Under the pieces are notes generated by a model. It was not told the origin of the DNA and searched no databases. It saw nothing but the letters and a program-made list of their open reading frames with translations. From positions 186,001-250,000 of the forward strand of contig NZ_CP069303.1 of NCBI RefSeq assembly GCF_016839145.1: DNA of 64,000 bases, in the 5' to 3' direction. The translations under genes and the position numbers were made by a program. Numbering within the stretch: position 1 is the first letter of the stretch; each line of letters starts with the position of its first letter. This stretch comes from Shinella sp. PSBB067 (GTDB lineage Bacteria > Pseudomonadota > Alphaproteobacteria > Rhizobiales > Rhizobiaceae). Positions 1,866-18,207 of the stretch are shown here, piece after piece.

Positions 1866-1892
1866 AATAATAAAATCTATAGTTTGAGTAAG
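1866..1892 (-). promoter_or_regulatory. AT-rich site related to the sulfur motif, upstream of ssuD
   Basis: Contains AAAATCTATAG (one intact TCTAT half; the second half is poor), 37-63 bases before the ssuD start. It shares the TCTATA core with the sites at 5429, 5761, 10691 and 18191. It may let ssuD be transcribed apart from the upstream transporter genes. Confidence 0.45.
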
Positions 1893-1924
1893 GAATTATA
1901 TTCTCTTGTACGGCCGCCGACGGG

Positions 1925-3019
1925 TTATTCCTTGCGTGATGTGGCGGAGGTGCCGCCGGCCGGTGCCGGTCCTGCCCCGCCGCCTGCCAGCCGCCGTTCG
2001 AGCCATCGGCTGTAGCGGGAGGCGCCGAAGCAGATGGCGAAATAGATGACGGCCACGACGATATAGGCCTCGTTGTAGAAGCCGAGCCATTGCGGATCGG
2101 CGGCGGCGGCACGGGCGGCGTTCAGGAGGTCGAAGATGCCGATGACGGCGAGCAGCGAGGTCGCCAGCAAAAAGCCGATGGCAAGGTTCACCAGGCCGGG
2201 AATGACGATGCGCAGGGCCTGCGGCAGGATGACGAGGCGCTGGGTGCGCCAGTATCCGAGGCCGAGTGCCGTCGCCGCTTCCGCCTGCCCGTGGGGAATG
2301 GCCTGAAGCCCCGCACGGATGACCTCGGCGATATAGGCGGCCCAGAACAGCGTCACCATGACGATGGCGCGGAGCATCTTGTCGATGGAAAGCCCGTCCG
2401 GCAGCGCCATCGGCAGGATCAGCATGGCGACATAGAGGATGGCGACCATCGGCGTGCCGCGCATGAGCTCGATATAGAGGACGGAAAAGGTGCGCAGCCC
2501 CCCGAGCGTCGAGCGCCGGGCGAGCGCGAGGAGAATGGCGATGGGCGTCGCCGCGGCAAGGCACAAGGCCCAGACGAAGAGCGTCACCGGCAGGCCGCCC
2601 CACTGGTTGGAGGGGATGGGCGTTGCGGTGAAGGCACCCTGCAGGAGCAGCCAGCAAGCCAGGATCGTCAGCGGCCAGGCGAGGATCAGCGGCCGGCCCC
2701 ACAGGCGGGGCACCGCGCTCGCCGCAAGGATCGCGCCCAGTAGCAGCATGACCAGCACTGGCCGCCATTGCAGGTCCGGCGGATAGAAGGCGAAGAGGAT
2801 GAAGCGGAGCTTGGCCGCGACGAACGCCCAGCAGGCGCCTTCGCGGGTGCAGGCACCGGCATTGCCGGAGAAGGTGGCGTCGAGCACCGCCCAGCGCAGG
2901 AGCGGCGGCACGACCTGTGAGAGCACGAGGAGCGTCGCGAGCGTTATGAGCGTGTTGGCGCGCGTTCCGAAAAGGCCGGCGCGCAGGGCCGGCAGCAGGC
3001 GGGGGGGACCGGCGGTCAT
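1925..3019 (-). CDS. Amino-acid-type ABC transporter permease (AapM/HisM family)
   Basis: Inner-membrane permease of a polar-amino-acid ABC importer, 364 residues. Its length and long N-terminal half match AapM of the rhizobial general L-amino-acid permease rather than the short HisM type. Multiple hydrophobic segments precede the conserved cytoplasmic loop, which reads EVIRAGLQAIPHGQAEAA followed by LGLGYWRTQRLVILPQALR, where the ATPase docks. Its start overlaps the stop of the partner permease gene by 4 bases, so the two are translationally coupled. The C-terminal tail is Gly/Pro/Ala-rich. The substrate is unknown; linkage to ssuD suggests a sulfur-containing amino acid or an amino sulfonate (inference). 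Confidence 0.9.
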   Translation of the reverse strand: MTAGPPRLLPALRAGLFGTRANTLITLATLLVLSQVVPPLLRWAVLDATFSGNAGACTREGACWAFVAAKLRFILFAFYPPDLQWRPVLVMLLLGAILAASAVPRLWGRPLILAWPLTILACWLLLQGAFTATPIPSNQWGGLPVTLFVWALCLAAATPIAILLALARRSTLGGLRTFSVLYIELMRGTPMVAILYVAMLILPMALPDGLSIDKMLRAIVMVTLFWAAYIAEVIRAGLQAIPHGQAEAATALGLGYWRTQRLVILPQALRIVIPGLVNLAIGFLLATSLLAVIGIFDLLNAARAAAADPQWLGFYNEAYIVVAVIYFAICFGASRYSRWLERRLAGGGAGPAPAGGTSATSRKE

Positions 3020-4161
3020 CGCCTGCTTCCCCTGAGCGCGACGCGGTTGTTGTAGACGTTCATCAGGACCGAGAGCGCGAGGTTGATGGTGAGGAAGGCG
3101 CCTATCAGGATGATCAGGGCTTCGAGGGACTGGCCGGTCGTGTTGGCCGTCGTGTTGACGATGCTGACGAGGTCGGGAAAGCCGATGGCGACGGCGAGGC
3201 TCGAATCCTTGGTGAGGTCGAGATAGCTCGATGTCGTCAGCGGCGTGATGACGCGCAGCGCCTGCGGCAGCACGACGAGGCGGATGATCTGGCCGTCATG
3301 CAGCCCGAGCGCGCGCGCCGCCTCCCACTGGCCGGTGCCGACCGACTGGATGCCCGCCCGGACGATTTCCGCGATCAGGGCGGCGAACTTCACGACGAGG
3401 CCGGTCAGGAGCGCGGCGAATTCCGGGGAGAGGTTGAGCCCGCCGCGAATGTTGAAACCGGAAAGCGCCGGCAGTTCGGCCGCCGGCCGGGCGCCGGAAA
3501 GGACGAGGAATGCAAGCGGGGCGGCGAGGGCGAGCATCACCGCAAATGTGCCGGAACGGCGCGTCAGGCGGCCGGCGGCGCGCAGGACGAGGATGAACGC
3601 GAGGCTGGCAAGGCCGGTCAGGACGAGGGCGGCGGCGAGGCCGAACGGCCCGCCCTCCAGAGAGAGCGAGGGGATGTAGACGCCCCGGTTCGTGAGGAAG
3701 ACGGAGCCGAAGAGCGCGGAGGCCTGGCGCGGCGCCGGCAGCGCCTTGGCGAGCGCCATCCAGAAGAAGAGCTGCAGCAGGAGCGGCGTGTTGCGGGTGA
3801 TCTCGATGAACCAGCGCACGAGGCGGGAGAGCAGCAGGTTGCGCGAAAGGCCGGCGATGCCGACGGCGACGCCGAGGATCGTGGCGAGGACGCAGCCGAG
3901 CAGCGAGACCTTCAGCGTGTTGAGAAGGCCCGCAAGGATCGCGCGCCGGTAGGTGTCTCCGGCGCGAAAGGCGATCGGGCTTTCGCCGATCTCGAAATTG
4001 GCCGAGCTCGACAGGAAGCCGAAGCCCGGCAGGATGCCGATGCGCGCCATGGTCTCCAGCACGTTGGCGATGAACAGCGCACCAAGCGCGCCGACCGCAA
4101 GGAGAAAGGCGAGCTGGCCGAGGGGCCAGCCGCCCCACCAGGCGCGGATTTTTTCCACCAT
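3016..4161 (-). CDS. Amino-acid-type ABC transporter permease (AapQ family)
   Basis: Partner permease of the 1925-3019 gene, about 381 residues, with the AapQ layout: N-terminal helix, a periplasmic segment, then the permease core TYRRAILAGLLNTLKVS and the docking loop EIVRAGIQSVGTGQWEAARA followed by LGLHDG. The reading frame stays open to 4299, but that extension is made of the palindromic repeat at 4219-4285, so I place the start at the ATG at 4161 (MVEKIRAW). No good ribosome site is visible there, so the start remains uncertain. The gap of about 150 bases to the binding-protein gene is taken up by the repeat. No ATPase gene follows in the operon. Confidence 0.88.
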   Translation of the reverse strand: MVEKIRAWWGGWPLGQLAFLLAVGALGALFIANVLETMARIGILPGFGFLSSSANFEIGESPIAFRAGDTYRRAILAGLLNTLKVSLLGCVLATILGVAVGIAGLSRNLLLSRLVRWFIEITRNTPLLLQLFFWMALAKALPAPRQASALFGSVFLTNRGVYIPSLSLEGGPFGLAAALVLTGLASLAFILVLRAAGRLTRRSGTFAVMLALAAPLAFLVLSGARPAAELPALSGFNIRGGLNLSPEFAALLTGLVVKFAALIAEIVRAGIQSVGTGQWEAARALGLHDGQIIRLVVLPQALRVITPLTTSSYLDLTKDSSLAVAIGFPDLVSIVNTTANTTGQSLEALIILIGAFLTINLALSVLMNVYNNRVALRGSRR

Positions 4162-4218
4162 GCCGGGCCGTAAGGGGCCCGGCAGCACGGTGCGCAACAC
4201 GCGGCGGCCCGGAATGGA

Positions 4219-4285
4219 CGCATTTCCGCTTTTTCCCGATTTGCGAAAATGCTCCATCCCATCGCCCTCACACAGTTCCGCATGC
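4219..4285 (-). repeat. Short palindromic intergenic repeat, copy B (RIME-like)
   Basis: Reverse-strand copy of the repeat at 591-662, sharing GGATGGAGCATTTTCGC and AAGCGGAAATGCG on the minus strand. It lies between the binding-protein gene and the permease gene of one operon, where such hairpins often protect the upstream message. Confidence 0.75.
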
Positions 4286-4314
4286 AAGCCGCGGCTCACC
4301 TTTGCCGGGTTTGC

Positions 4315-5346
4315 TCAGCGGAAGGGCGGCGAGTAGAGCAGGCCGCCGTCGGTCCACAGGCTGTTGTAGCCGCGCTCCCAGCCGAGCGGCTTCAGGTGGC
4401 GCTCGAAGACCTCGCCGTAGTTCCCGACGGTCTTGATGATGGTGTAGGCCCATTTCGGATCGAGCCCGATATCGTTGGCGAAGGACGGATCGACGCCGAG
4501 GAAGCGCTGGATCGCCGGGTCTTCCGATTTCAGGAACTCGTCGACATTGGCGGAGGTGATGCCCCATTCCTCGGCCTGGATCGTGGCGTTGACCGTCCAG
4601 TTGACGAGTTCCAGCCAGCGGTCGTCGCCGCCGGCGATCGCCGGTGCGAGCGGCTCCTTGGACAGGCGCTCGGGCAGGAGCACGTAGTCGTCCGGCTTCT
4701 TGAGCTGGGTGCGCTTGCCGACGAGGTCGGAGGAATCCTGCGTGATCGCGTCGACGCGGCCGGATTCCAGCGCATCGATGAACTGCCCCGTATCCTCGAT
4801 GGTGACGGGTGTGAAGGTCTTGCCGGTCTTGCGGAAGAAGTCGGCGACGTTCAGCTCGCCCGTCGTGCCGCTCTGCGCGCCGATGGTCGCGCCGTCGAGA
4901 TCGGCGGCCTTCGTCACGCCGAGGTCCTTGCGCACGAGAATGCCCTGGCCGTCGTAGAAGACCGTCGGGCCGAAATGGAAGCCGAGCTTGAAGGCGCGAG
5001 TGGTGGTGACGGTCACGCCGGAAAGCAGGATGTCGAACTCGCCGCTCTGAAGCGCCGGCAGGCGCTGCTGCGGCGAGGAGGAGGTGAACTCCACCTTGTC
5101 GGGCGTGCCGAAGACGGCGATGGACAGGGCGCGGCCGAAATCGATGAAGAAGCCCTGCCACTTGCCGTTGCTGTCGGGCGCGAAGAAGCCGGGCGTGGTG
5201 CCGACGCCGACCTTGATGGCGCCGCGCTGGTTGATCTTGTCGAGCGTCGGGCCGGCATGGGCAAGGCCGGACAGCATGGTCGTGGCCAGGAAGGCGGCGG
5301 CCGCGGCAGACCGGATCGCTAGCCGGAGGGTCTTGTGCACTATCAT
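4315..5346 (-). CDS. Amino-acid ABC transporter substrate-binding protein (AapJ/family 3)
   Basis: Periplasmic binding protein, 343 residues, that delivers its ligand to the two permeases encoded downstream. A signal peptide runs to about residue 31 (cleavage after LAHA). The mature part starts TLDKINQRGAIKVGVG, typical of family-3 binding proteins and of AapJ, and continues with QWFG-like ligand-pocket motifs such as FEFDILLSGVTVTTTR-type segments (here GEFDILLSGVTVTTTRA). The C-terminus WERGYNSLWTDGGLLYSPPF is AapJ-like. It is the first gene of the leftward operon and has an AT-rich TCTATA promoter site upstream. The ligand cannot be read from sequence. Confidence 0.9.
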   Translation of the reverse strand: MIVHKTLRLAIRSAAAAAFLATTMLSGLAHAGPTLDKINQRGAIKVGVGTTPGFFAPDSNGKWQGFFIDFGRALSIAVFGTPDKVEFTSSSPQQRLPALQSGEFDILLSGVTVTTTRAFKLGFHFGPTVFYDGQGILVRKDLGVTKAADLDGATIGAQSGTTGELNVADFFRKTGKTFTPVTIEDTGQFIDALESGRVDAITQDSSDLVGKRTQLKKPDDYVLLPERLSKEPLAPAIAGGDDRWLELVNWTVNATIQAEEWGITSANVDEFLKSEDPAIQRFLGVDPSFANDIGLDPKWAYTIIKTVGNYGEVFERHLKPLGWERGYNSLWTDGGLLYSPPFR

Positions 5347-5428
5347 ATTGAAATGTCCCCATTTTCAAAAGAACCAGGCTTCTGTCGCAAGGAGGTTTCG
5401 CAAGCCGGCAGAAGTTATTTTTATATTA

Positions 5429-5445
5429 TCTATAAAATTAGTGTA
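5429..5445. promoter_or_regulatory. TCTATAAAAT site before the amino-acid-type operon
   Basis: TCTATAAAATTAGTGTA: the first half-site TCTAT is intact and the second is degenerate. It sits about 85 bases upstream of the binding-protein start (minus strand). Related to the better sites at 10691 and 18191. Confidence 0.5.
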
Positions 5446-5760
5446 ATTAAGGGACGGGCATGCTAAAATTCGACCTTGATGCGGAAATTGCTTCCCGCAC
5501 GATGCAAAACGGAAGGGGTTTCGACAGGGGCAGGTGATGCGGAGGCCTCCGCGTCGATCCTGGTGAGGTTGGCAATCTCATGCATTGGCATGACGCTGGC
5601 CGCACCCGCCGCCGTGGGACCACGAGGCGCTGGTGAGTTTCCGGCGCTGCGATGGCAGGCATTTTGCAAGGCCGGCGCCGACGCGCGGGGGCCGGCGGCA
5701 CGCAAATCCACCGGCTCCTCCATCCGCGAAAGAATATTCTCCTCCGCGTCCGCATAATAA

Positions 5761-5777
5761 TCTATAAAATCTATATA
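5761..5777 (+). promoter_or_regulatory. Sulfur-type operator before the sulfonate operon
   Basis: TCTATAAAATCTATATA: TCTAT, 7 bases, ATATA (4 of 5 against ATAGA). It lies 55-71 bases upstream of the binding-protein start at 5832, a place where an activator of the LysR type (T-N11-A) could bind. The regulator is not encoded nearby. Confidence 0.6.
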
Positions 5778-5831
5778 CTATTATCAAAGGCGCTAGGCTG
5801 GCCTCATCGTTTCGCAAAAGGGGGATAGAAG

Positions 5832-6866
5832 ATGAGCCAGCAACCCGAAACCAACCCTTCCAGGGGCTTCTCGCGCCGCAGCCTGATCAAGGCGGCGGGC
5901 GTCACGGCCGTCGCCGCCACGGCCGGCGTGATCGGCGCGCGCTCGACGCGTTATGCCATCGCCGGCAACCTCATTCCGATCAAGCTGGAATGGACCGAGG
6001 TCGCCGCCTGCCATTCGCCTGTGGGCTTTGGCCTCTCCAAGGGCATCTATGCCAAGCACGGGCTCGACGTGGAGCTCTTCTACCAGGGTGCGAGCGGCCA
6101 GACGCTCATCCAGGCGCTCGCCACCCGCAAGGCCGAGGCCGGCCCGGGCCTGCTCTACGACTGGCTGAAGCCGATCGAGCAGGGGTTCGACGTGCGGCTG
6201 TTCGCCGGCTCGCACGGCGGCTGCCAGAGCATCCTCGTCAAGCCGGACTCCGACATCAAGACCCTGACCGACCTCAAGGGCAGGACGATCGGCACCTTCG
6301 ACGTCATGTCGCCCTCGCGCGTCGCCTTCTCGGTCGCGCTCGCCAAGGCCGGCCTCGACCCGGAGACCGACGTCACCTGGAAGGTCTTCCCCTTCGATCT
6401 CGTGGCCGAGGGCGTGCTGAAGGGCGAGGCGGACGCCGTCGCGCACATGGATCCCTGGGCCTATTCCTACGAGAAGCAGCACGGCTTCCGCCGCGTCGCC
6501 GATACGCAGACCGGCACGTTCAAGGACCGCGTCTGCTGCGTGCTCGGCGTCAACGGCGATTACTACGAGGCCAACAAGGACGCCATCAGGCGGGTCGCCG
6601 CCGCCAATCTGGAAATCCACCAGTACACCGCGAAGCACCCGGACGAAGTCGCCAAGTGGTATTTCGACACGCTGAAGCCCGGCCTCTCGCTGGAGGACCT
6701 GACGGAAGTGCTCGCCGCCTTCACCTATCACGACCACTGGTTCGGCAAGGACCTCCTGAAGGAGGTACGGATCGGCTACGAGGACCTCAGGCTGACCGGC
6801 GTCATCGACGCGGGGACCGATCCCGAGGAGATCGCAAACCGCATCACCATCGACATCTTCGCGTGA
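5832..6866 (+). CDS. Sulfonate-type ABC transporter substrate-binding protein, Tat-exported
   Basis: Periplasmic binding protein of the SsuA/TauA/NrtA class, 344 residues. The N-terminus has a twin-arginine signal (SRRSLIKAAG followed by a hydrophobic stretch to about residue 40). The mature part has the class features: KLEWTEVAACHSPVGFGLSKG, a KHGLDVELF segment and later MDPWAYSYEKQHGFRRVAD. A GGGGGATAGAAG stretch precedes the ATG. It is followed after 4 bases by the permease gene. The operon also holds MetY, which supports sulfonate or a related sulfur ligand; the exact compound is unknown. Confidence 0.88.
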   Translation: MSQQPETNPSRGFSRRSLIKAAGVTAVAATAGVIGARSTRYAIAGNLIPIKLEWTEVAACHSPVGFGLSKGIYAKHGLDVELFYQGASGQTLIQALATRKAEAGPGLLYDWLKPIEQGFDVRLFAGSHGGCQSILVKPDSDIKTLTDLKGRTIGTFDVMSPSRVAFSVALAKAGLDPETDVTWKVFPFDLVAEGVLKGEADAVAHMDPWAYSYEKQHGFRRVADTQTGTFKDRVCCVLGVNGDYYEANKDAIRRVAAANLEIHQYTAKHPDEVAKWYFDTLKPGLSLEDLTEVLAAFTYHDHWFGKDLLKEVRIGYEDLRLTGVIDAGTDPEEIANRITIDIFA

Positions 6867-6870
6867 TGCC

Positions 6871-7872
6871 ATGAGCGCGGCGGTCGAGCAGACATTCGAC
6901 GGGGCAGGGCGGCAAACCGCCGCCTTCTCCTTCCCGGGCATCTGGCGCAACGGGCTTTTCGCGGCCGGCACATGGTCACTCGCCGCGGCGCTGACCTATG
7001 GGCTGCCCGATGTCATCAACTGGGGCGCGACGGACCTCTTCGCCGCCGTCGCGCTGGCCGGCGCGGGGATTTTCCTCGCGCTGTCGATCACGGTCGGCAG
7101 GCTGGGAAGCCTCGGCCGCACGCTCGTCCATTACGGGCCGTGGTTCATCGTGCTCGGCCTCTGGCTCGCGGTATGGGAGGTACTGACGGCCAAGCTCGGC
7201 TGGCTGCCGAAGCCGTTCTTCTCGCCGCCGCAGGGCCTGCTGCACGTCTATGTGACGGATTGGGACCGCCTGCTTGTCTGCATCGCCTATACCGGGCGGC
7301 TCTGGGGCCTCGGCTTCTTCTCCGGCATCCTCGTCGGCTTTGCCGGCGGCGTCGCTCTCGGCTGGTCGAAGCGGTTCGCCTATTGGGGCATGCCGCTTCT
7401 CAAGCTGATCGGCCCGGTGCCGGCCAGCGCCTGGATTCCCTGCACCTTCTTCATCTTCCCGTCGACCTTCCACGCCTCCATCTTCCTCGTGGCGCTCGCC
7501 TCCGGCATTCCGGTCGCGATCCTCACGGCGGCGGGCGTCGGCCAGGTCAACCGCTCCTTCTACGACGTCGCCCGCACGCTGGGTGCGGACAACCGCTTCC
7601 TCATCTTCAAGGTCGCGATCCCGGCCTCGCTGCCGAACGTCTTCGTCGGCCTTTTCATGGGGCTCTACTATTCCTTCGCCGTGCTTGTCGTCGCCGAGAT
7701 GCTCGGCGCCAAGTTCGGCCTCGGCTGGTATCTCCAGTTCAACACGGCCTACTCGGCCTATGCCAACGTCTATGCCGCCCTCATCGTCATGGCGCTGATC
7801 TGCGCCGGGCTCGTGCGCCTGCTCTTCGTGGTGCGCGATCGCCTGCTCGGCTGGCAGAAGGGGATCCTCTGA
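6871..7872 (+). CDS. Sulfonate-type ABC transporter permease (SsuC/TauC family)
   Basis: Inner-membrane permease, 333 residues. About eight hydrophobic segments are visible; the two at residues 25-75 are extra to the usual SsuC core, making this protein longer than the 260-residue norm. The core starts at GPWFIVLGLWLAVWEVL and holds the permease segment with GPVPASAWIPCTFFIF and the docking loop around DVARTLGADNRFLIFKVAIP. Its stop overlaps the ATPase start (TGATG), so the two are coupled. Confidence 0.88.
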   Translation: MSAAVEQTFDGAGRQTAAFSFPGIWRNGLFAAGTWSLAAALTYGLPDVINWGATDLFAAVALAGAGIFLALSITVGRLGSLGRTLVHYGPWFIVLGLWLAVWEVLTAKLGWLPKPFFSPPQGLLHVYVTDWDRLLVCIAYTGRLWGLGFFSGILVGFAGGVALGWSKRFAYWGMPLLKLIGPVPASAWIPCTFFIFPSTFHASIFLVALASGIPVAILTAAGVGQVNRSFYDVARTLGADNRFLIFKVAIPASLPNVFVGLFMGLYYSFAVLVVAEMLGAKFGLGWYLQFNTAYSAYANVYAALIVMALICAGLVRLLFVVRDRLLGWQKGIL

Positions 7873-8660
7873 TGGCCCTTGCGCTCGCAGAAACCAACGC
7901 CGCCGGCAGCATCGCGCTCGATGTGGAAGGCGTCTCCCATCGCTACGAAAGCGACGGCAGGGACCTGCAGGTTCTCGACGACGTGAGCCTGACGATCGCG
8001 CCGGGCGAATTCGTCGCCCTGCTCGGCCCGTCCGGCTGCGGCAAGTCCACCCTGCTGCGCCTTGCCGCCGGCCTTGAAACGGCGACAAGGGGGCGGGTGC
8101 TGGAAGACGGAAAGCCCATCACCGGGCCGAACCCGGACCGTATCCTCGTCTTCCAGGATGCGACGCTGTTTCCCTGGCGCACGGTGCGCGCCAATATCGC
8201 GACAGGGCTTGAAGCGCGCGGCGTCCTGACCGCGCTTGAGCACCGGATCGACGAGGTGCTGAAGCTGGTGAAGCTCGAAGGCTTCTCGGATTTCTATCCG
8301 CACCAGCTTTCGGGCGGCATGGCGCAGCGTGCCGCGCTTGCCCGCGCCCTCGTCAACGATCCGAAGCTGCTGCTGCTGGACGAACCCTTCGGCAAGCTCG
8401 ATTCGCTGACGCGGCTACGCATGCAGAACGAACTGCTCGACCTCTGGAAAAGTACCGGCTTCACCGCCCTGCTCGTCACCCACGATGTGGAGGAGGCGCT
8501 GCTGCTGGCCGACCGGGTGATCGTGCTTTCGGACCGGCCGGCCTCGATCATCGCGCAGGTGCGCGTCGACCGGCCCCATCCGCGCCGGCGGGACGATGCC
8601 GGTCTCGTCGCGCTGCGCCGCGCGCTGCTGGAAAAGCTGGGGATCTCCCATGACGTCTAG
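7872..8660 (+). CDS. Sulfonate-type ABC transporter ATP-binding protein (SsuB/TauB family)
   Basis: Cytoplasmic ATPase of the importer, 262 residues. Walker [10 protein letters not shown] near residue 52, Q-loop [17 protein letters not shown], signature [15 protein letters not shown], Walker [13 protein letters not shown] and the H-loop [13 protein letters not shown] are all intact. The FPW after the Q-loop is typical of the nitrate/sulfonate/taurine group. The start overlaps the permease stop by one base; the end overlaps the next gene by 11 bases. Confidence 0.92.
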
Positions 8661-8949
8661 CGCACGCCTTTCCTCCCAGGCCGTGGCGATTGCCGGCGGT
8701 GCCTTCGCGTTGCTGTCGCTCGGCTGGTGGTGGCTGATCTTCAGCAAGGTCGTCGCGGCCGATTACCTGACGGTCGGGCAGGCCGTGACCTGCATCGCCG
8801 GGGCGAGCGACCTGTGCACGCTCGCCCAGGCGTTCTGCACCGACGACCATCTCTACGGCATCCGGTGGTACGCGCCGGAAGCCTTCTGGGCCGCAGCCAG
8901 CATCCTCGTCGCCGGCGTCCTTCTGTCGGCCCGTCCCGCGCGCGCCTGA
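8650..8949 (+). CDS. Small two-helix membrane protein of the sulfonate operon
   Basis: 99 residues, not recognised. Hydrophobic segments at about 12-35 (with a WWW run at 26-28) and 76-93 flank a 40-residue loop with three cysteines (C48, C56, C63), a histidine and several aromatic residues. The start codon lies within the end of the ATPase gene (11-base overlap) and metY follows 25 bases after the stop, so it is translated as part of the operon. The cysteines would be periplasmic if both termini are cytoplasmic. A role as an accessory part of the importer is possible but not shown. Confidence 0.7.
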   Translation: MTSSARLSSQAVAIAGGAFALLSLGWWWLIFSKVVAADYLTVGQAVTCIAGASDLCTLAQAFCTDDHLYGIRWYAPEAFWAAASILVAGVLLSARPARA

Positions 8950-10393: not shown

Positions 10394-10690
10394 CGTGATC
10401 GCCGCTTTCCCATCAATTCCACGCCTGACCGGTCTGCCGGCTCCGCGACGGCAGGTGCTGGCGCAGATCGAGACTGTCTGGAGCGCCGGCCCCGGTGAGG
10501 AGCCGCCGCGCCGTTCGGCCATCATTGCGGAAATCGCCGCAAGCCGCAGCGCCGCCGGCATGGTGTGTTCCGCAGCGGGGGGAGGTAGCGGAGTAAGGGG
10601 AGAAGCCCCGATTCTTGGAGCTGCGCGCGGAGCCGAATCTTTTCCCAACGCCGCGCATTTTGGAAAATCCTGCCTGTTCCCGCGCATTAG

Positions 10691-10707
10691 TCTATATAAT
10701 TTATAGA
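10691..10707 (+). promoter_or_regulatory. Perfect sulfur-type operator TCTAT-N7-ATAGA
   Basis: TCTATATAATTTATAGA is a perfect inverted repeat (TCTAT, 7 bases, ATAGA), 31-47 bases before the ATG at 10738. The same arrangement occurs at 18191. T-N11-A spacing fits a LysR-type regulator (CysB/Cbl class), but the regulator is not known. Confidence 0.7.
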
Positions 10708-10737
10708 TTATATGATTATCGATCCAACGGGGACATC

Positions 10738-11742
10738 ATGACCGACGATATTCGTTCCGGCGTCAACCGCCGCAATCTCCTGAAGCTTACCGCCGTCGCC
10801 GGCGTGGTGGCGGGCACCGGCCTTCTTTCGGCGCGCACGGCCGCGGCCGGGGAGGAGCTTTCGCTCAAGGGCAAGCGCATCGGCATCAGCACCGCCGGGA
10901 CCGACCACTTCTTCGATCTCCAGGCCTACAACGCCCAGATCGAGGAGGTTAAGCGCCTCGGCGGCGAACCGATCGCCGTCGATGCCGGTCGCAACGACGG
11001 CAAGCTCGTCTCGCAGCTCCAGACGCTGATCGCCCAGAAGCCGGATGCCATCGTCCAGCTTCTCGGTACGCTCAGCGTCATCGATCCCTGGCTGAAGAAG
11101 GCGCGCGAGGCCGATATCCCCGTTCTCACCATTGATGTCGGCTCCGTCAATTCGATCAACAACGCCACCTCCGACAACTGGGGCATCGGCAAGGACCTCG
11201 CCCTCCAGCTTGTCTCCGACATCGGCGGCGAGGGCAACATCGTCGTCTTCAACGGCTTCTACGGCGTCACGCCCTGCGCCATCCGCTACGACCAGCTCGT
11301 CAATGTCGTGAAGTATTTCCCGAAGGTGCAGATTGTGCAGCCGGAGCTGCGCGACGTGATCCCGAACACCGTCCAGGACGCCTTCACCCAGATCACCGCG
11401 ATCCTCGCCAAGTATCCGGAAAAGGGGTCGATCAAGGCGATCTGGTCGGCCTGGGACATCCCGCAGCTCGGCGCCACGCAGGCGCTTGCCGCCGCCGGCC
11501 GCACGGAGATCAGGACCTACGGCGTCGACGGCAGCCCGGAAGTGCTCCAGCTCGTCGCCGACCCGAACTCGCCGGCTGCCGCCGACGTCGCCCAGCAGCC
11601 GGCCGAGCTCGGCCGCGTCGCGATCCAGAACGTCGCCCGCCACCTCGCCGGGCAGACGCTGCCGCGCGAGACCTACGTGCCGGCGCTTCTCGCCAACAAG
11701 CAGAATGTCGGCGAAATCTCCAAGAAACTCGGCATCGGCTGA
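10738..11742 (+). CDS. Sugar-type ABC transporter substrate-binding protein, Tat-exported
   Basis: Periplasmic binding protein type 1 (RbsB-like), 334 residues. The N-terminus carries a twin-arginine signal (NRRNLLKLTAVAGVVAGTG). The mature part begins LKGKRIGISTAGTDHFFDLQ, then IAQKPDAIVQLLGTL, the hinge-type YGVDGSPEVL and the C-terminal PAELGRVAIQNVARHLAG, as in ribose/autoinducer-type binding proteins. It heads an operon with the ATPase and two permeases. Its position between sulfur genes, its sulfur-type operator and the SfnB-like enzyme downstream suggest a sulfur-bearing ligand rather than a plain sugar (inference). Confidence 0.87.
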   Translation: MTDDIRSGVNRRNLLKLTAVAGVVAGTGLLSARTAAAGEELSLKGKRIGISTAGTDHFFDLQAYNAQIEEVKRLGGEPIAVDAGRNDGKLVSQLQTLIAQKPDAIVQLLGTLSVIDPWLKKAREADIPVLTIDVGSVNSINNATSDNWGIGKDLALQLVSDIGGEGNIVVFNGFYGVTPCAIRYDQLVNVVKYFPKVQIVQPELRDVIPNTVQDAFTQITAILAKYPEKGSIKAIWSAWDIPQLGATQALAAAGRTEIRTYGVDGSPEVLQLVADPNSPAAADVAQQPAELGRVAIQNVARHLAGQTLPRETYVPALLANKQNVGEISKKLGIG

Positions 11743-11751
11743 TTTTGAAGC

Positions 11752-11873
11752 GCCCCCTCATCCGGCCCTTCGGGCCACCTTCTCCCCGCCGGGGAGAAGG
11801 AGAGGGAGGGAATGCGGCCCCTCGTTTCCCCTTCTCCCTCGGGGAGAAGGGGCCGGCAGGCGGATGAGGGGGC
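11752..11873. repeat. Large palindromic intergenic repeat with nested hairpins
   Basis: Outer arms CCCCTCATCCG / CGGATGAGGGG enclose two strong hairpins, CCTTCTCCCC / GGGGAGAAGG (11778-11800) and CCCCTTCTCCC / GGGGAGAAGGGG (11828-11852). Repeats of this type are common between genes in Rhizobiaceae and Brucella. It sits inside an operon, between the binding-protein gene and the ATPase gene, where it could stabilise the first message and reduce read-through. Confidence 0.8.
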
Positions 11874-11895
11874 TTTTACAATGAGGACAACGGCC

Positions 11896-13428
11896 ATGGC
11901 GGATACGGCAGAGGGCGGCGCGGCAGTCGTCCGGCTCGAAAACATCGTCAAGCGCTTCGGCGGCGCGCAGGCGCTTTCGGGGGCGTCGCTCACCGTCAGG
12001 CGCGGCTCGGTGCATGGCCTCGTCGGCCAGAACGGCGCGGGCAAGTCGACGCTGATCAAGCTCATCGCCGGCCTTCACCGGGTGGACGAAGGCACGGTCG
12101 AGATCGACGGCAAGGCCCATGACCGGCTGACGCCGCATCTCGTGGAAGAGCTCGGCATCCATTTCATCCACCAGGATCGGCTGCTCGTGCCGACCTTCAC
12201 GGTGGGCGAGGCGCTGTTCCTCGGGCGCGAGCCGCGCATTCCCGGCACCCCCTTCCTCGATCGCGCGGCGATGCGGCGCAGGTCCGCCGAGATTCTTCAG
12301 CGCTACTTCGGTCTCTCGCTGCCCCATTCGGCGCTGATCGCCGACCTTTCGGCGGCGGAAAAGCAGATCGTGCAGATCACCCGCGCGCTCATCGCCAATC
12401 CCAAGGTGCTGGTCTTCGACGAGCCGACCGCCGCGCTCGTCCGGCGCGAGGCGGACCTTCTCTTCCAGCTCATCCGCCGCCTCGCCGCCGAGGGCGTCAC
12501 CGTCCTCTACATCTCGCATTATCTCGGCGAGATCGTCGATCTCTGCGACACGGTCACGGTGCTGCGCAACGGCCGCGATGTCGCGACCCTGCCCGTCGCC
12601 GAGACGTCGGCGGCCGAGATCGGCGCGCTGATGGTCAACCGCGATATCGGCGAGCTTTACCCGAAGCCCGCCGTCACGCCCGGCGAGGTGATCCTGCAGG
12701 TGGAGAACCTGGCGCTCGCAGACCGCTTCGACGCCGTCTCCTTCTCGCTGCGCAAGGGCGAGGTCCTCGGCCTCACCGGCCTCGTCGGTTCGGGCGCGAA
12801 GGAGGTGGTGCGCACGCTCTTCGGCCTCGACCGGCCGACCGGCGGCACCGTTTCCGTCAAGGGCGAGACGGTGTTCTCCGCCGATCCCGCCGCCGCGACG
12901 GAGCGCCACCTGGCGCTCGTGCCGGAGGACCGCCGCCGCGACGGCGTCGCGCTCGACCTTTCCGTCACCGAGAACACCACGCTCGCCAGCCTCGACCGCT
13001 TTTCCCGCGGCCTTATCGACCGCGGCGCGGAACGGCGGCAGACGGAAGACCTCGTCAAGCGGCTGCAGGTCAAGACCGACGGCGTCGATGCGCTTGTGAA
13101 GACGCTCTCGGGCGGCAACCAGCAGAAGGTGGCGATCGCCAAGTGGCTGAGCCGCCAGTCGGAAATCTACCTGCTCGACGAGCCCACGGTCGGCGTCGAT
13201 ATCGCCGCCAAGGTGGAGATCTACCGGCTGATCGGGGAACTTGCCGAGCGCGGCGCGGGCGTCCTCGTGCTCTCCTCCGATATCGAGGAACTGCTCGGCG
13301 TCACCGATCGCCTGCTCGTCTTCTTCCGCGGCCGCGTCACGCGGCAGTTCATCTCCTCCGAAACGAGCCCGGATCAGGTCCTTGCGGACGTGACGGGCGC
13401 CTACGAGACGCTTCGCCATGCTGGTTGA
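11896..13428 (+). CDS. Sugar-type ABC transporter ATP-binding protein (RbsA/MglA family)
   Basis: Double ATPase of about 510 residues with two nucleotide-binding halves. The first half has Walker A GQNGAGKST, signature LSAAEKQIVQITRAL and Walker B VLVFDEPTAAL. The second half has a degenerate Walker A (GLVGSGAKEV), LVPEDRRRDGV, signature LSGGNQQKVAIAKWL and YLLDEPTVGVD, as usual for RbsA-like proteins. I choose the ATG at 11896 because AGGA lies 8 bases upstream; an ATG at 11881 in frame is possible, and a longer frame reaches into the palindromic repeat and is not credible. The end overlaps the first permease gene by 11 bases. Confidence 0.92.
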   Translation: MADTAEGGAAVVRLENIVKRFGGAQALSGASLTVRRGSVHGLVGQNGAGKSTLIKLIAGLHRVDEGTVEIDGKAHDRLTPHLVEELGIHFIHQDRLLVPTFTVGEALFLGREPRIPGTPFLDRAAMRRRSAEILQRYFGLSLPHSALIADLSAAEKQIVQITRALIANPKVLVFDEPTAALVRREADLLFQLIRRLAAEGVTVLYISHYLGEIVDLCDTVTVLRNGRDVATLPVAETSAAEIGALMVNRDIGELYPKPAVTPGEVILQVENLALADRFDAVSFSLRKGEVLGLTGLVGSGAKEVVRTLFGLDRPTGGTVSVKGETVFSADPAAATERHLALVPEDRRRDGVALDLSVTENTTLASLDRFSRGLIDRGAERRQTEDLVKRLQVKTDGVDALVKTLSGGNQQKVAIAKWLSRQSEIYLLDEPTVGVDIAAKVEIYRLIGELAERGAGVLVLSSDIEELLGVTDRLLVFFRGRVTRQFISSETSPDQVLADVTGAYETLRHAG

Positions 13429-14467
13429 CGCCCCCTATATCCCGGCTTCCGCGCTCGAAGTCGAGGCGCAGAAGGCATTCGAGACGCCCCGTACCGGCCC
13501 GGCCTTCGGCCGACGCCTCGCCACGCTGGCGCTCCGGGGCGGCGCGCTCGCCGTCTTCGTCGGCGTCCTCGTCGTCTTCTCCGCCGCCGCGCCGTTCTTC
13601 CTCACGGTCGGCAATATCGGCAACGTGCTCGGCCAGTCGGCCATTGCGGGCGTGCTCGCCATCGGGCTCACCATCGTCATCATCGCTGGTGGCTCGAATG
13701 TCGTGACCGGCGGCATCGACCTGTCGCTCGCCGCCAATATGGGCCTCAGCGCCGCCGTCTATGCCACACTGGTGCAGGCGGGGCATGGCGACGGCGTCGC
13801 GATTGCCGGCGCGCTCGCCACCGGGCTCGCCATCGGCGCGGTCAATGCCGCCGCCGTCACGCTCGCGGGCATCGTGCCGCTGCTGGCGACGCTTGCCGTC
13901 ATGAACGTCGTCGCCGGGCTCGAACTGGTGCTGACGCAGAACACCGTCGTCCCGGCTTCGAGCGAATTCCTCTCGGCGCTTTCGGCCGGCGGTCCGTTCG
14001 GCATTCCCGTGCTCGCCTATCTCCTCCTCGGCTTCACGCTCGTCGTCGCCGCCATCGTGCAGTACACGCCGCTGGGCCTGCGCCTCTACGCGGTCGGCGC
14101 ATTCCCGGATGCCGCGCGGGCGGCGGGCCTGCCCGTCAAGTCCTTCGTCGCGGGCTCGTTCCTGGCGAGCGGCCTGTGCGGCGGGCTCGCCGGCATCCTG
14201 TCGGTCTCCTACCTCTCGGGCAGCACCACCGGGGCCGGCGACATGCTGCTGCCGGTCGTCGTCACCGCCCTGCTCGGCACGGTCTTTTCCGGCCGGCTTG
14301 TGCCGACCGTCACGGGCACGCTGCTGTCGGCGCTCTTCGTCGGCTTCCTCATCAACGGCTTCCAACTCCTCAACATTTCCAGCACGCTGGTCAGCGGCGT
14401 GCAGGGACTGCTGATCCTGCTCGTCGTTTCCGCCACCACGCTGCTCGGCCGCAAGGAGAATGCCTGA
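13418..14467 (+). CDS. Sugar-type ABC transporter permease 1 (RbsC family)
   Basis: Inner-membrane permease, 349 residues, with an N-terminal cytoplasmic tail of about 40 residues and eight to ten hydrophobic segments. The family's GGIDLSLAANMGLSAAV block (GGIDLSVG in RbsC) is visible near residue 107 and the loop GLRLYAVGAFPDAARAAGL near 210. Start overlaps the ATPase gene end; its stop overlaps the second permease gene. The two different permeases suggest a heteromeric channel. Confidence 0.9.
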   Translation: MLVDAPYIPASALEVEAQKAFETPRTGPAFGRRLATLALRGGALAVFVGVLVVFSAAAPFFLTVGNIGNVLGQSAIAGVLAIGLTIVIIAGGSNVVTGGIDLSLAANMGLSAAVYATLVQAGHGDGVAIAGALATGLAIGAVNAAAVTLAGIVPLLATLAVMNVVAGLELVLTQNTVVPASSEFLSALSAGGPFGIPVLAYLLLGFTLVVAAIVQYTPLGLRLYAVGAFPDAARAAGLPVKSFVAGSFLASGLCGGLAGILSVSYLSGSTTGAGDMLLPVVVTALLGTVFSGRLVPTVTGTLLSALFVGFLINGFQLLNISSTLVSGVQGLLILLVVSATTLLGRKENA

Positions 14468-15446
14468 CATGGCGACCGTCGCTCTCTCCTCCCTCGGCCG
14501 CGGCGCCGCCCGCTATGCGCTGGTCGCGGCGCTCGCCGCCGTCTTCGCCCTCTTCGCGACGCTTGCGCCCGGTTTCCTCACCGGCGCGAACCTCCTCAGC
14601 GTGCTGGTGAACAATTTCGCCCTGCTCGCCATCGTCGCCATCGCCATGACCTTCGCCGTCTCGGCGGGCGGCATCGACCTTTCGGTCGGCACGGCGGTGG
14701 ATTTTTCGAGCTTCGCCTTCGTCTCGCTGGTGCTTGCCGGGCAGCCGGTCGCGCTTGCCGCCCTCGGCGGGCTTGCCGGCGGGGCGCTGGTCGGCCTCTT
14801 CAACGCCGTGCTCATCGCCGGCATCGGCATCTCGCCGTTCCTCGCCACGCTCGGCACGCTCTTCGTCGGCCGCAGCGTGCAGCAACTGCTGACGAACGGC
14901 GGCAACCCGGTCTACCTGCCGCCGGCCGGCGTGCCGGAAGCCTTCCGCTTCCTCGGCCACGGCACGCTCGCCGGCCTACCCGTGCCGCTCGTCGTCACCG
15001 CGCTCGTCATCGGCGGGGCCTGGGTCGTGCTCTCGCGCACGCGTTTCGGCCGGGTGGCGCTCGCCACCGGCATCCAGGCGAGCGTCGTGCGCTATTCGGG
15101 CCTGCGCCTGCCGCGCATCACCGCGGCCACCTACATTCTGGTCTCGACCATCGCCGCCGTGGTCGGCCTCATCCTCACCTCGACGGTCACGGTCTACATC
15201 CCGTCCTCCGGCAATGCCTTCCTCCTCAACGCCATCGGCGCCACCTTCATCGGCACGACCTTCGATCCGCACGGCCGGCCGAACGTGCCGGGCACCGTTC
15301 TCGGCGTGCTGCTGCTCGGCGTCGTCGCCAACGGGCTCCTGCTGTCGGGCCTCAATTTCTACTGGCAGCAGGTCGGCACCGGCCTCCTCATCTTCTCCGT
15401 CCTCGCCATCGGCTTCGCCAACCGCAAGGCCGCCGGCCGGGCCTGA
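14460..15446 (+). CDS. Sugar-type ABC transporter permease 2 (RbsC family)
   Basis: Second inner-membrane permease, 328 residues, of the same importer. It has GGIDLSVGTAVDFSSFAF, the ISPFLATLGTLFVGRSVQ segment and the loop TRFGRVALATGIQASVVRYSG, as in RbsC-like proteins. ATG at 14460 overlaps the previous stop by 8 bases; a second ATG nine bases on is also possible. The SfnB-like gene follows 26 bases after the stop, so transport and flavoenzyme are co-transcribed. Confidence 0.9.
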   Translation: MPDMATVALSSLGRGAARYALVAALAAVFALFATLAPGFLTGANLLSVLVNNFALLAIVAIAMTFAVSAGGIDLSVGTAVDFSSFAFVSLVLAGQPVALAALGGLAGGALVGLFNAVLIAGIGISPFLATLGTLFVGRSVQQLLTNGGNPVYLPPAGVPEAFRFLGHGTLAGLPVPLVVTALVIGGAWVVLSRTRFGRVALATGIQASVVRYSGLRLPRITAATYILVSTIAAVVGLILTSTVTVYIPSSGNAFLLNAIGATFIGTTFDPHGRPNVPGTVLGVLLLGVVANGLLLSGLNFYWQQVGTGLLIFSVLAIGFANRKAAGRA

Positions 15447-15472
15447 ACCCGGATTCATCGAAAGGATTCTTC

Positions 15473-16687
15473 ATGAGCAGCGTCACCCGGCTCTCCGAAC
15501 CCCCGCAAAACGCCCGCCGCATCGCCAGCGAGGAGGAGGCGCTCGCCGTTGCCCGCACGCTTGCCACCGAGTTCGCCGGCGGCGCGAGCCGGCGGGACTA
15601 CGAGCGGGCGCTGCCGCATGAGGAGCTCGACAGGCTCTCCGCCTCCGGCCTCCTCGCCATCACCGTTCCGGCCGAATATGGCGGCATCGACGTCTCCAAC
15701 GCCGTGCTCGCCGAGGTGACGGCGATCCTCTCGGAGGCCGACAGCTCGATCGGCCAGATCCCGCAGAACCATTTCTACATTCTCGAAGCGCTCCGCCACG
15801 ACGGCAGCGAGGCGCAGAAGCGCTTCTATTTCGGGCGGGCGCTTGCCGGCGAGCGTTTCGGCAACGCCCTTTCCGAGGTCGGCACGAAGACGGTGGGCGA
15901 CTACAACACCCGCATCACGCGCGATGGCGCGGGTTTCCGCATCAACGGGCGGAAATTCTATTCGACAGGCGTTCTCTTCGCCCATTGGGTGGCGATCTTC
16001 GCGCTCGACGAGGAGGATCGCCTCACCATGTCGTTTGCCCCGCGCGAGACCGAGGGCATCGAGATCGTCGACGACTGGGACGGCTTCGGCCAGCGCACGA
16101 CCGGGAGCGGCACGACGATCCTGCACGACGTCTACGTGCCGGCCGATGCCGTCGTGCCGCACCAGAAAGGGTTCGAGCGCCCGGGCACGATCGGCTCGGT
16201 CGGCCAGATCATCCATGCCGGTATCGACCTCGGCATCGCGCGCGCCGCCCTGAAGGAGACGATCGGCTACGTCCGCGACCGGGCGCGGCCCTGGACCGAC
16301 AGCGGCGTCGAGCGCGCCGCGGACGATCCGCTGACCATCGCCCGGATCGGCGAACTCGCCATCCGCGTCGAGGCCGCCGTGGCGACGCTGGAGCGGGCGG
16401 GGCGCAAGATCGACCAGGCGCAGGTGAACCTCAATGCGGACAATGCCGTCGCCGCGACGCTGGCGGTGGCCGCCGCCAAGGTGCTGACGACGGAGCTCGC
16501 CATCGACGCCACCAACGTGCTCTTCGAACTGGCCGGCTCGTCCGCCACCAGGCGCGGCCTCAACCTCGAGCGCCACTGGCGCAACGCCCGCACCCATACG
16601 CTGCACGATCCTGTGCGCTGGAAGTACCATGTCGTGGGCAACTATCACCTCAATGGCGTCACGCCGCCGAAAAGCGGCGCGCTCTGA
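15473..16687 (+). CDS. SfnB-family sulfur-acquisition flavin oxidoreductase
   Basis: Acyl-CoA-dehydrogenase-fold protein, 404 residues, of the SfnB/DszC branch. These enzymes take part in freeing sulfur from sulfones and related organosulfur compounds with reduced flavin. Seen are ITVPAEYGGIDVSNAVLAEV at the N-terminus, GNALSEVGTKTVGDY and FRINGRKFYSTG in the flavin-binding middle, and RHWRNARTHTLHDPVRWKY at the C-terminus, a hallmark of the DszC-like group. It lacks acyl-CoA-pathway neighbours and is the last gene of the sugar-type ABC operon. The substrate is unknown. A strong terminator follows. Confidence 0.88.
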   Translation: MSSVTRLSEPPQNARRIASEEEALAVARTLATEFAGGASRRDYERALPHEELDRLSASGLLAITVPAEYGGIDVSNAVLAEVTAILSEADSSIGQIPQNHFYILEALRHDGSEAQKRFYFGRALAGERFGNALSEVGTKTVGDYNTRITRDGAGFRINGRKFYSTGVLFAHWVAIFALDEEDRLTMSFAPRETEGIEIVDDWDGFGQRTTGSGTTILHDVYVPADAVVPHQKGFERPGTIGSVGQIIHAGIDLGIARAALKETIGYVRDRARPWTDSGVERAADDPLTIARIGELAIRVEAAVATLERAGRKIDQAQVNLNADNAVAATLAVAAAKVLTTELAIDATNVLFELAGSSATRRGLNLERHWRNARTHTLHDPVRWKYHVVGNYHLNGVTPPKSGAL

Positions 16688-16718: not shown

Positions 16719-16750
16719 GGCCGCAACTCTCCGGGGTTGCGGCCTTTTTT
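16719..16750 (+). terminator. Rho-independent terminator after the SfnB-like gene
   Basis: Stem GGCCGCAAC / GTTGCGGCC (perfect 9 bp), 8-base loop, then six T. It ends the rightward transporter operon 31 bases after the stop. Confidence 0.92.
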
Positions 16751-16791
16751 GCGGGAGCATGCCTCGGTCGGGAATACAGGTTGCCAACGAC

Positions 16792-16826
16792 GGAAGGCGG
16801 CCTTCGGCCGCCTCCGGTTCTCCTGC
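16792..16826 (-). terminator. Hairpin after the DszC-like gene
   Basis: Stem AGGCGGCC / GGCCGCCT with a 3-base loop just beyond the stop of the leftward gene at 16839. No T-run is present on the minus strand, so its function as a terminator is uncertain. Confidence 0.4.
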
Positions 16827-16838
16827 CCGGGGCCTGCC

Positions 16839-18050
16839 TCAGCTATAGAGGCTCGGCTCCGGCACGCGGCCGTTGAGCGCGAAATCGCCGACTTCGCGGG
16901 CCTTGTAGAAGACCGGGTCGTGCAGCGTGTGGGTGCGCACGTTGCGCCAGTAGCGGTCGAAGCGGTGGTGCGAGGCGGTCGAGCGGGCACCGGTCAGCTC
17001 GAATATCCTGGACGTGACTTCGAGCGCGACATGGGTGGCGTTGACCTTTGCCGCATAGGCCTCGATCGCCGCCTCGCCGCGTTCGCGCGCGGTGACGCCC
17101 CGGCCGCGTGCGAGCGCCGACTGGACGGCCGATGCCGCTGCGTCGGCAAGGGCGGCGGAGGCCTTCAGCGCCGCGCGGAACTCGCCGATGCGCTCCAGGA
17201 TATACGGATCCTCGCTCGCCTTTTCGAGCCCGGACGTGACCCAGGGGCGCGTCGTGGTCCGCACATAGTCTTCGGCCACCGCCAGCGCGCCCTCGGCCGT
17301 GCCGATATAGAAGTTGACGAAGACGAGCTGGATCAGCGGCGTGTTGAACGTCGCCTGCACCGGCGGAGCGGCATCCTTCCCCGCGAGCGGCAGCAGGAAG
17401 TCGCTTTCATAGACCGGGAAATCCCTGAACTCCACGCTGCCGCTGTCGGAGAGCCGCTGGCCGATATTGTCCCAGTCGTCATTGGCGATGTAGCCGGCCC
17501 GGTCCGTCGGCAGCACGAGATTGGCGACCTCCTCGCCGAAGGCCGCATTGGCGTTGATGCGGTCGGAGACATGCGCGCCGGTCGAGAAGGTCTTCTTGCC
17601 GTTGAGGAGATAGTGGTCGCCGCTGCGGGCCAGCGTCAGGCCGGGATCGCGCGGGTTGACGGCAGCGCCCCAGTAGAGCGACTTGGCGACCGTCTCGACG
17701 CCGAGGTCCCAGGCCTTGTCCGGGTCGTCGGCGGCCCAGTAGACGTATTGGCTGTTGACGAAATGATAGCCGAGCAACTGGCCGATCGAGCTTTCGCCGC
17801 GCGCGAGGATGCGCACCAGCCGCAGCCCGTCAACCCAGTCGAGCCCGCCGCCGCCGATCTCGGCGGGGTGCAGCGCGGTGAGCAGGCCTTCCTGCCTCAA
17901 TCGGTCGATTTCCGCCAGCGGCGGCCTGCCCTCGGCATCGAGCTGCGCGCCGCGGCGTGCTAGGTCGGCGGCAATCTCCCCGGCCCTTGCAAAGAGGCGG
18001 GTCCTGATCTCCCGAGGGTCTGCTTCCTTGACGAGATGCAATGCGGTCAT
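16839..18050 (-). CDS. DszC/SfnB-like flavin-dependent monooxygenase
   Basis: Acyl-CoA-dehydrogenase-fold enzyme, 403 residues, of the group that includes dibenzothiophene monooxygenase DszC and SfnB. Seen are GLLTALHPAEIGGGGLDW, the GESSIGQLLGYHF segment, the middle domain with YLLNGKKTFSTGAHVSD, and RYWRNVRTHTLHDPVFYK at the C-terminus, which contains the conserved histidine of DszC. It is a paralogue of the gene at 15473. It is transcribed alone to the left and shares the control region at 18051-18287 with the NtaA-like gene. A sulfone, sulfoxide or sulfonate substrate is likely (inference). Confidence 0.87.
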   Translation of the reverse strand: MTALHLVKEADPREIRTRLFARAGEIAADLARRGAQLDAEGRPPLAEIDRLRQEGLLTALHPAEIGGGGLDWVDGLRLVRILARGESSIGQLLGYHFVNSQYVYWAADDPDKAWDLGVETVAKSLYWGAAVNPRDPGLTLARSGDHYLLNGKKTFSTGAHVSDRINANAAFGEEVANLVLPTDRAGYIANDDWDNIGQRLSDSGSVEFRDFPVYESDFLLPLAGKDAAPPVQATFNTPLIQLVFVNFYIGTAEGALAVAEDYVRTTTRPWVTSGLEKASEDPYILERIGEFRAALKASAALADAAASAVQSALARGRGVTARERGEAAIEAYAAKVNATHVALEVTSRIFELTGARSTASHHRFDRYWRNVRTHTLHDPVFYKAREVGDFALNGRVPEPSLYS

Positions 18051-18190
18051 GGTCTGTCTCCTGCTGTCCGGCCGATACCGGGCGGAGCGCGCGGTCGGGG
18101 CGGGGTGAACGGCGGCGACGGTCCCCGCCGCTTGCGCGCATCTTCCCAGACGCCCCGGCCGGCAACCAGAAAAGCCGTTTCCGAAATTAA

Positions 18191-18207
18191 TCTATATAAA
18201 AGATAGA
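18191..18207. promoter_or_regulatory. Perfect sulfur-type operator between divergent monooxygenase genes
   Basis: TCTATATAAAAGATAGA: TCTAT, 7 bases, ATAGA, the same half-sites and spacing as at 10691. It lies 81 bases before the rightward ATG (18288) and about 140 before the leftward start (18050), so one site may serve both directions. Confidence 0.7.

Follow-up and report, generated by a model that had tools for sequence, protein, structure and literature searches.

Operator sites and genes of the window

The window analysed here is a 64-kb stretch of the Shinella sp. PSBB067 genome (C2:186001-250000 of the four-contig, 5.77-Mb genome G000), in which gene sets for the use of organosulfur compounds are preceded by copies of an inverted repeat with the core TCTAT-N7-ATAGA. 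These sites are quite probably the operators of one sulfur-starvation regulon of Shinella, read by an Rrf2-family protein that is encoded outside the window at C1:371849-372310 and would work like CymR, the cysteine-metabolism repressor of Bacillus and Staphylococcus. Genes were called with a codon-usage script and a subset of them was named through NCBIfam and Pfam, as shown in Table 1.

A string search of the window returned two perfect copies of the repeat, at 10691-10707 and 18191-18207, and a copy with one mismatch at 5761-5777, and it confirmed the site at 5429-5445 (TCTATAAAATTAGTGTA) and a TCTATA half-site near 1876, so that all the repeats listed in an earlier note on this DNA are present. 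The bare string is barely above chance, with seven window matches at up to two mismatches against 3.67 expected (at least seven in 6 of 100 shuffles) and, at up to one mismatch, 26 places genome-wide against 21 for the backwards pattern; matrices were therefore used in its place. A third perfect copy, at C2:893442-893458 (L019:3443-3459), was rejected as an operator since it lies inside a called coding sequence, presumably smpB, and it cautions against the use of the bare string.

A 21-bp matrix was built from the Rrf2 loci of genera other than Shinella, with 60 first-order Markov shuffles of the window as background. The maxima of the shuffles had a mean of 10.9 bits and a highest value of 19.5 bits, so four of the sites score above every shuffle and the half-site before ssuD does not; the view that each of the five is an operator is thus convincing for four of them and doubtful for the one at 1.87 kb. 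The five sites are the five top-ranked places of the window, and the 14 best listed scores all fall within them. It is the flanking sequence and not the bare core that separates the sites from chance, and the extended palindrome, approximately AATCTATAAANTTTATAGATT, is specific, unlike the bare string.

Table 1. Predicted operators and named genes of the window (window positions; operator scores from the 21-bp matrix)
Feature	Position	Strand	Remarks
Operator, core 10691-10707	10689..10709		Upstream of sugar-type importer and SfnB operon; perfect palindrome; 28.4 bits
Operator, core 5761-5777	5759..5779		Upstream of sulfonate-type importer operon; 27.4 bits
Operator, core 18191-18207	18189..18209		Between divergent DszC-like and NtaA-like genes; 24.0 bits
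Operator, core 5429-5445	5427..5447		Precedes minus-strand amino-acid-type importer and ssuD operon; 23.6 bits
Weak half-site, doubtful operator	1865..1894		Precedes ssuD; 16.0 bits (1865) and 15.7 bits (1874), within the range of shuffle maxima
ssuD, FMNH2-dependent alkanesulfonate monooxygenase	660..1829	-	TIGR03565, 567.7 bits, above cut-off
Amino-acid-type ABC importer	1925..5346	-	Permeases 1925-3019 and 3016-4257; binding protein 4315-5346
Sulfonate-type ABC importer (binding protein, permease, ATPase)	5832..8660	+	Binding protein TIGR01728, 76 bits, below cut-off 163.5
O-acetylhomoserine/O-acetylserine sulfhydrylase	8975..10336	+	TIGR01326, 551 bits, above cut-off
Sugar-type ABC importer (binding protein, ATPase, two permeases)	10738..15446	+	Binding protein distantly RbsB-like, 58.6 bits against cut-off 337
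SfnB-family sulfur acquisition oxidoreductase	15473..16687	+	TIGR04022, 609 bits, above cut-off
DszC/SfnB-like flavin monooxygenase	16839..18050	-	NF043015, 269.6 bits, and TIGR04022, 253.1 bits, both under cut-off
NtaA/DmoA-family FMN monooxygenase	18288..19703	+	TIGR03860, 534.4 bits, above cut-off
FAD-NAD(P)-binding protein	19696..21165	+	PF13454

The four genes at 4315-5346, 3016-4257, 1925-3019 and 660-1829 share the minus strand, and no gap between them exceeds 95 bp, so ssuD may be the distal gene of an operon driven by the 5429 site. Within the amino-acid-type importer, the first permease is named by TIGR01726 (above cut-off), the second by its position alone, and the binding protein by TIGR01096 at 156.7 bits, under the cut-off of 256.35. 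The permeases and ATPases of the sulfonate-type and sugar-type importers were named by eye and position, and a 99-aa frame in the sulfonate-importer operon (8650-8949) matched nothing in NCBIfam or Pfam at the thresholds applied. Some members of the NtaA/DmoA family do not act on sulfur compounds. The Pfam family of the FAD-NAD(P)-binding protein recurs in a gene at L016:16462 with its own site, and its homologues flank the Rrf2 gene in Rhizobium.

Further sites in the Shinella genome

Seven sites from the genome of the window were aligned over 27 bp (alignment A1) and model R1 was built from them, while A1 read backwards (R3) served as a control with equal composition and information content. 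The genome-wide matrix search that the earlier note had called for listed 11 distinct places with R1 at E ≤ 10, seven being the training sites. Three of the four new places are sulfur-related, namely the cysH promoter, the 5429 site of the window (listed at 5425) and the promoter of a flavin reductase gene, and the fourth precedes an Xaa-Pro aminopeptidase-like gene. The name cysH comes from NCBIfam; cysD downstream of it and the flavin-monooxygenase-like neighbour of the flavin reductase were recognised by eye.

To the left of the window (C2:163000-186000), one site precedes a ribose-type importer operon that is divergent from SDR and rhodanese genes, another precedes an FAD-NAD(P)-binding protein gene, and another lies about 340 bp upstream of a second sulfonate-type importer, which is followed by a 2OG-Fe(II) oxygenase gene and by a gene running into the window that we take to be cysE. 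The surroundings of the window form an organosulfur island of roughly 40 kb, and elsewhere a site at C3:379593 lies upstream of a second NtaA-like gene. A 645-aa protein without Pfam match (L016:11167-13104) is encoded in the ribose-type importer operon divergent from the rhodanese gene, downstream of an operator-like site.

Conservation of the operator in relatives

The search of 60 relatives with R1 (E ≤ 1.5) yielded 90 matches, which fall on 80 places and belong to 25 genomes, against one place in 61 genomes for the backwards control R3. All 80 places were retrieved and classified, a place being assigned to sulfur when it lies at most 400 bp upstream of a gene that is at least 40% identical to a sulfur-type reference or is so named by family search. 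A total of 49 of the 80 places precede sulfur-type genes or orthologues of the window cluster: 41 are sulfur-type (36 by identity, and five by family search, with a sulfate-binding protein, MsuE, an MsnO8-family oxidoreductase, a ComA-like protein and a rhodanese as targets), and eight lie upstream of orthologues of the remaining cluster genes. Seven places have no called gene start within reach. Among the 49, 23 are orthologues of the promoters used to train R1 (ssuA 10, NtaA six, sugar importer four, second NtaA two, ribose-type importer one), and 26 are outside the training set, including cysH (eight), flavin reductase (three), tauA, MsuE and the sulfate-binding protein. MsuE and the sulfate-binding protein are members seen in the relatives only, and cysH is found in the genome of the window as well.

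The distance between site and start codon repeats among orthologues, with 164-168 bp for cysH (eight places), 57-62 bp for ssuA (10), 88-92 bp for flavin reductase (three), 91 and 99 bp for the orthologues of the 5429 site, and 88-91 bp in five of the six NtaA promoters, the sixth having 56 bp from the called start. The 10691 site is preserved with zero to two mismatches in all six close orthologous promoters of three genera (L037-L042), and the operator is absent from the promoter of a homologue of the sugar importer with 51% identity (L043). In alignments of the ssuA, NtaA and tauA promoters, the operator is conserved amid partly diverged sequence; the cysH alignment lacks it because only 150 bp were covered and the operator lies at about 167 bp. 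The operator that the earlier note described as common to the sulfur gene sets is thus found again in orthologous promoters, and it links both the amino-acid-type importer and the sugar-type importer with sulfur.

The ssuA promoter of the window and its orthologues share another conserved stretch, around AAAGAATATTC (5729-5739 in the window). It lies about 21 bp upstream of the operator, and the bases in between are not conserved. At L271 (G016:C4:83799-87821), the site precedes the ComA-like gene (phosphosulfolactate synthase family, PF02679), which possibly adds another organosulfur pathway to the regulon.

Association of the operator with an Rrf2-family gene

The most likely reader of the operator, and the best candidate obtained, is an Rrf2-family protein of 154 aa (G000:C1:371849-372310). 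Its gene is divergent from tauABC, the binding protein of which exceeds the TIGR01729 cut-off, and an operator-like site lies between the two. The genome of the window has four Rrf2-domain matches. Of the other three, one is a RirA that passes its cut-off, one resembles RirA and NsrR but reaches neither cut-off, and one exceeds the threshold of Pfam though not that of the NCBIfam superfamily.

Named relatives were taken as the best 80 of 563 candidates, from Shinella, Rhizobium, Allorhizobium, Agrobacterium vitis, Ensifer, Pararhizobium and records named to family or order; the closest among these 80, from S. granuli, S. yambaruensis and S. zoogloeoides, are 97-98% identical. Palindromic motif discovery from random k-mer starts, run on 129 deduplicated intergenic segments of 57 non-Shinella loci with the Rrf2 gene masked, returned AatCTATAAAaTTTATAGatT, which is the operator palindrome. 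Its log-likelihood was 117.1, against 99.0 for the next different motif and 87.1-93.8 in three Markov-shuffled runs (250 starts, against 350 in the real run). Sixteen of the 46 sites lie 75-151 bp upstream of the Rrf2 gene, and some of the remaining ones precede FAD, ssuA and flavin reductase genes. Of the 46, 28 had a score of 9.2 or more, and 25 of these went into model R2 (L135 and L133, which nearly duplicate others, were omitted, as was L186). R2 listed five places at E ≤ 10 in the whole Shinella genome, all five of them operators of the sulfur regulon and two of them in the window. R1, searched on 68 non-Shinella Rrf2 loci, gave 25 matches at 18 places, one each in 18 loci and all less than 2 kb from Rrf2, and the backwards control R3 had no match in these loci.

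Other settings of the discovery were set aside. An initial run with Shinella loci included and Rrf2 unmasked had AaTCTAcAAAaTTTgTAGAtT as its top motif, and an unmasked non-Shinella run was led by AgTTTACtAAaTTaGTAAAcT (261.5) over AatCTACaAAaTTtGTAGatT (255.2); the sites of this lead motif included the conserved start of the Rrf2 gene, which was therefore masked, and discovery was repeated with stricter deduplication. Exact 5-mer dyad counts around Rrf2 were rejected as dominated by shared ancestry, TCTAT-N7 occurring in two of 80 loci against 0.0 expected, outside the top 30.

The gene and the operator also occur together. An Rrf2 orthologue of at least 50% identity is present in 19 of 20 other genomes of the genus and in G023, G029, G034, G036 and G046. 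In G016, two 30-residue tails with 87% and 83% identity begin at the first base of two contigs, so the gene was counted there as present but cut, while relatives of 40-46% identity (G031, G040, G041, G049) and one of 32% (G058) were scored as absent. R1 hits occur in 22 of the 25 relatives with an orthologue (G016 included) against three of the 35 without (Fisher p 3e-10, with no correction for relatedness), and the five hits in these three (G032, G039, G060) never precede a called gene. The 40-46% group is a possible sister regulator of sulfate uptake: by eye, L111 has its member between cysH-like and sulfate-binding-protein-like genes, and L113 before a sulfate-binding-protein-like gene.

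In 56 of the 80 named loci, Rrf2 has within five genes a neighbour with 39% or more identity to a sulfur-type reference, and in 55 a sulfur-type or FAD-NAD(P) gene adjoins it directly. The sulfur-type neighbours are tauABC in Shinella, ssuA, ssuD and flavin reductase in Agrobacterium vitis, SfnB in R. rhizogenes, and an SfnB-like protein under the cut-off in R. johnstonii 3841. In the open-licence literature, judged by title and abstract, we found no Rrf2 protein tied to sulfonate or sulfur genes in Rhizobiaceae, no published regulator of these genes and no role already assigned to the candidate protein.

The Rrf2 protein and known systems

The protein belongs to the Rrf2 superfamily (TIGR00738 104.9 bits, cut-off 73.3; PF02082 over cut-off) and falls under the equivalog cut-offs of CymR (NF047409, 80.1 bits of 195), IscR (72.4 of 207.55), RirA (42.6 of 193) and NsrR (50.8 of 182). 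The solved structures nearest to it in sequence are that of an Rrf2 protein from Thermincola, labelled T. potens IscR, and those of CymR (2y75 6.2e-17, 3t8r 2.3e-14). Among solved structures, CymR is also the one that best matches the fold which AlphaFold predicts for the S. granuli orthologue (mean pLDDT 83.3). C91, C100, C103 and C109 are invariant in 26 orthologues, and C91, C103 and C109 are also invariant across 13 aligned Rrf2 proteins and align with the cysteines of RirA-type proteins.

CymR resembles the Shinella protein in domain family, in sequence and fold, and in its association with sulfur and cysteine genes, before which the operators read by the Shinella protein would lie; PMC2869319 describes it as a repressor of these genes which forms a regulatory complex with CysK. 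The Shinella protein differs in its four invariant cysteines, its score under the CymR cut-off, its occurrence in Rhizobiaceae and a regulon rich in organosulfur importers and monooxygenases. With the Fe-S regulators RirA, IscR and NsrR it has the three RirA-type cysteines in common, but it stays under all three cut-offs and carries C100 as a fourth invariant cysteine. A CymR/Rrf2 protein has been predicted in Rhodococcus qingshengii IGTS8, which is an actinobacterium; that prediction draws on annotation, sequence comparison and proteomics, and the available part of the source mentions no operator (PMC8557817).

Proposed mechanism and alternatives

We infer that an Rrf2 dimer would bind the palindrome and repress the organosulfur importers, the flavin monooxygenases and cysH while sulfur is plentiful, and would release the operator when sulfur is short. 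The four invariant cysteines suggest that sulfur status may be sensed through an Fe-S cluster or thiol chemistry, the candidate signals being such a cluster, cysteine, or a partner of the CysK type like that of CymR. Repression would fit the promoters in two respects, as 11 aligned tauA promoters have a conserved -35-like box, TTGAGG, which would make the -10 fall within the operator, and TATAAT occurs in the one at 10691. More tentative, with slightly more doubt than trust, is the wider proposal that Rhizobiaceae use a dedicated Rrf2 repressor with the pattern C-X8-C-X2-C-X5-C as the master switch of sulfur scavenging in place of CysB, sensing through its own Fe-S cluster or thiols.

Activation, or control of both signs, by the same protein at the same operator is rather unlikely. 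IscR can both activate and repress, and the ssuA and NtaA promoters have no clear -35, with the operator upstream of a possible -10, which leaves room for activation and weighs against pure repression. The tauA box and the TATAAT of the 10691 operator speak for repression instead, as does the role of CymR, the closest fold, as a repressor (PMC2869319). Binding of the operator by a different Rrf2 paralogue, or by an Lrp/AsnC-type protein whose gene stands next to Rrf2 in some loci, is improbable. Members of the 40-46% group do stand beside sulfate-binding-protein-like genes in other genera and families, several genomes of the genus have a second Rrf2 copy at about 43%, Lrp-like genes occur within five genes of Rrf2 in eight of the 80 named loci (adjacent in L126 and L128), and one R1 hit in G034 precedes an Lrp-like gene; but the three other Rrf2 matches of the Shinella genome are the RirA, sub-cut-off RirA/NsrR-like and sub-superfamily proteins described above, and in 72 of the 80 loci no Lrp-like gene was found in the vicinity of Rrf2.

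The LysR-type reader (CysB, Cbl or SsuR-like, activating the genes when sulfate is short) that the earlier note had favoured is probably wrong, and we consider it very improbable. Proteins of this kind control sulfonate genes in enterics and Burkholderia, with similar target genes and expected physiology but from another regulator family. TAT-N7-ATA is compatible with the loose T-N11-A form of LysR sites, the ssuA promoter lacks a clear -35, and 57 places of the Shinella genome match NF009327, the one CysB-family model used, at E ≤ 0.001, as LysR proteins do, yet none of the 57 reaches its cut-off of 402 bits, the best having 92.1. In BLAST comparisons with six LysR proteins, LysR-like genes were found within five genes of Rrf2 in eight of the 80 named loci (adjacent in L191) and in three of the 80 hit loci of the relatives, each about 3-4 kb long; they do not recur with the sites, whereas Rrf2 does, and Rrf2 loci yield the motif de novo. 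That the sites are AT-rich promoter sequence and no operator is hardly credible. The half-site resembles the rhizobial -10, CTATAT, and the bare consensus hardly exceeds chance, so the bare string alone would not escape the objection that a motif equally frequent before unrelated genes, or lacking from orthologous promoters, is such sequence. The extended motif does escape it, and this reading is already refuted by the control, as the real matrix finds 80 places in the 60 relatives and the backwards matrix a single place in 61 genomes.

Several observations weigh against an Rrf2-read sulfur regulon. The site before the Xaa-Pro aminopeptidase-like gene, which has no obvious sulfur role, recurs in G000 (C2:1885341-1885362, L079), G001 and G004 (L249, L251), and 24 of the 80 places in relatives precede genes that the classification rule does not assign to sulfur; several of these genes match SfnB, FAD or SsuA references at 28-32%, and others encode oligopeptide-type binding proteins with a distant likeness to the glutathione binder GsiB, whose cut-off they do not reach. 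Several reference genes (for NtaA-like enzymes, for the flavin reductase and for its neighbour) owe their sulfur label to context alone, and the relatedness of the genomes inflates the counts. The Rrf2-positive genomes G005, G036 and G046 have no R1 hit (G046 has mismatched sites beside Rrf2), and in 24 of the 80 named loci no organosulfur gene was recognised near Rrf2. In the Shinella genome at E ≤ 10, the 18191 and 5429 sites of the window are missing from the places listed with R2, and the tauA site from those listed with R1. This last site lies about 400 bp from the Rrf2 start codon, close to tauA, so autoregulation is not evident in this genome.

For sulfur scavenging in the Rhizobiaceae, a family of plant-associated bacteria, the Rrf2 protein is a candidate regulator open to testing and the palindrome an operator that can be read from genomes. 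The operator also flags genes with unknown substrates as candidates for sulfur nutrition, namely the two importers of the window and, in relatives, oligopeptide-type importers, FAD enzymes and the peptidase. If the cysteines hold an Fe-S cluster, the sensing of cellular sulfur becomes directly testable, and the Rrf2 switch, if real, would be the sulfur counterpart of the iron sensor RirA, acting beside RirA in the same cells.

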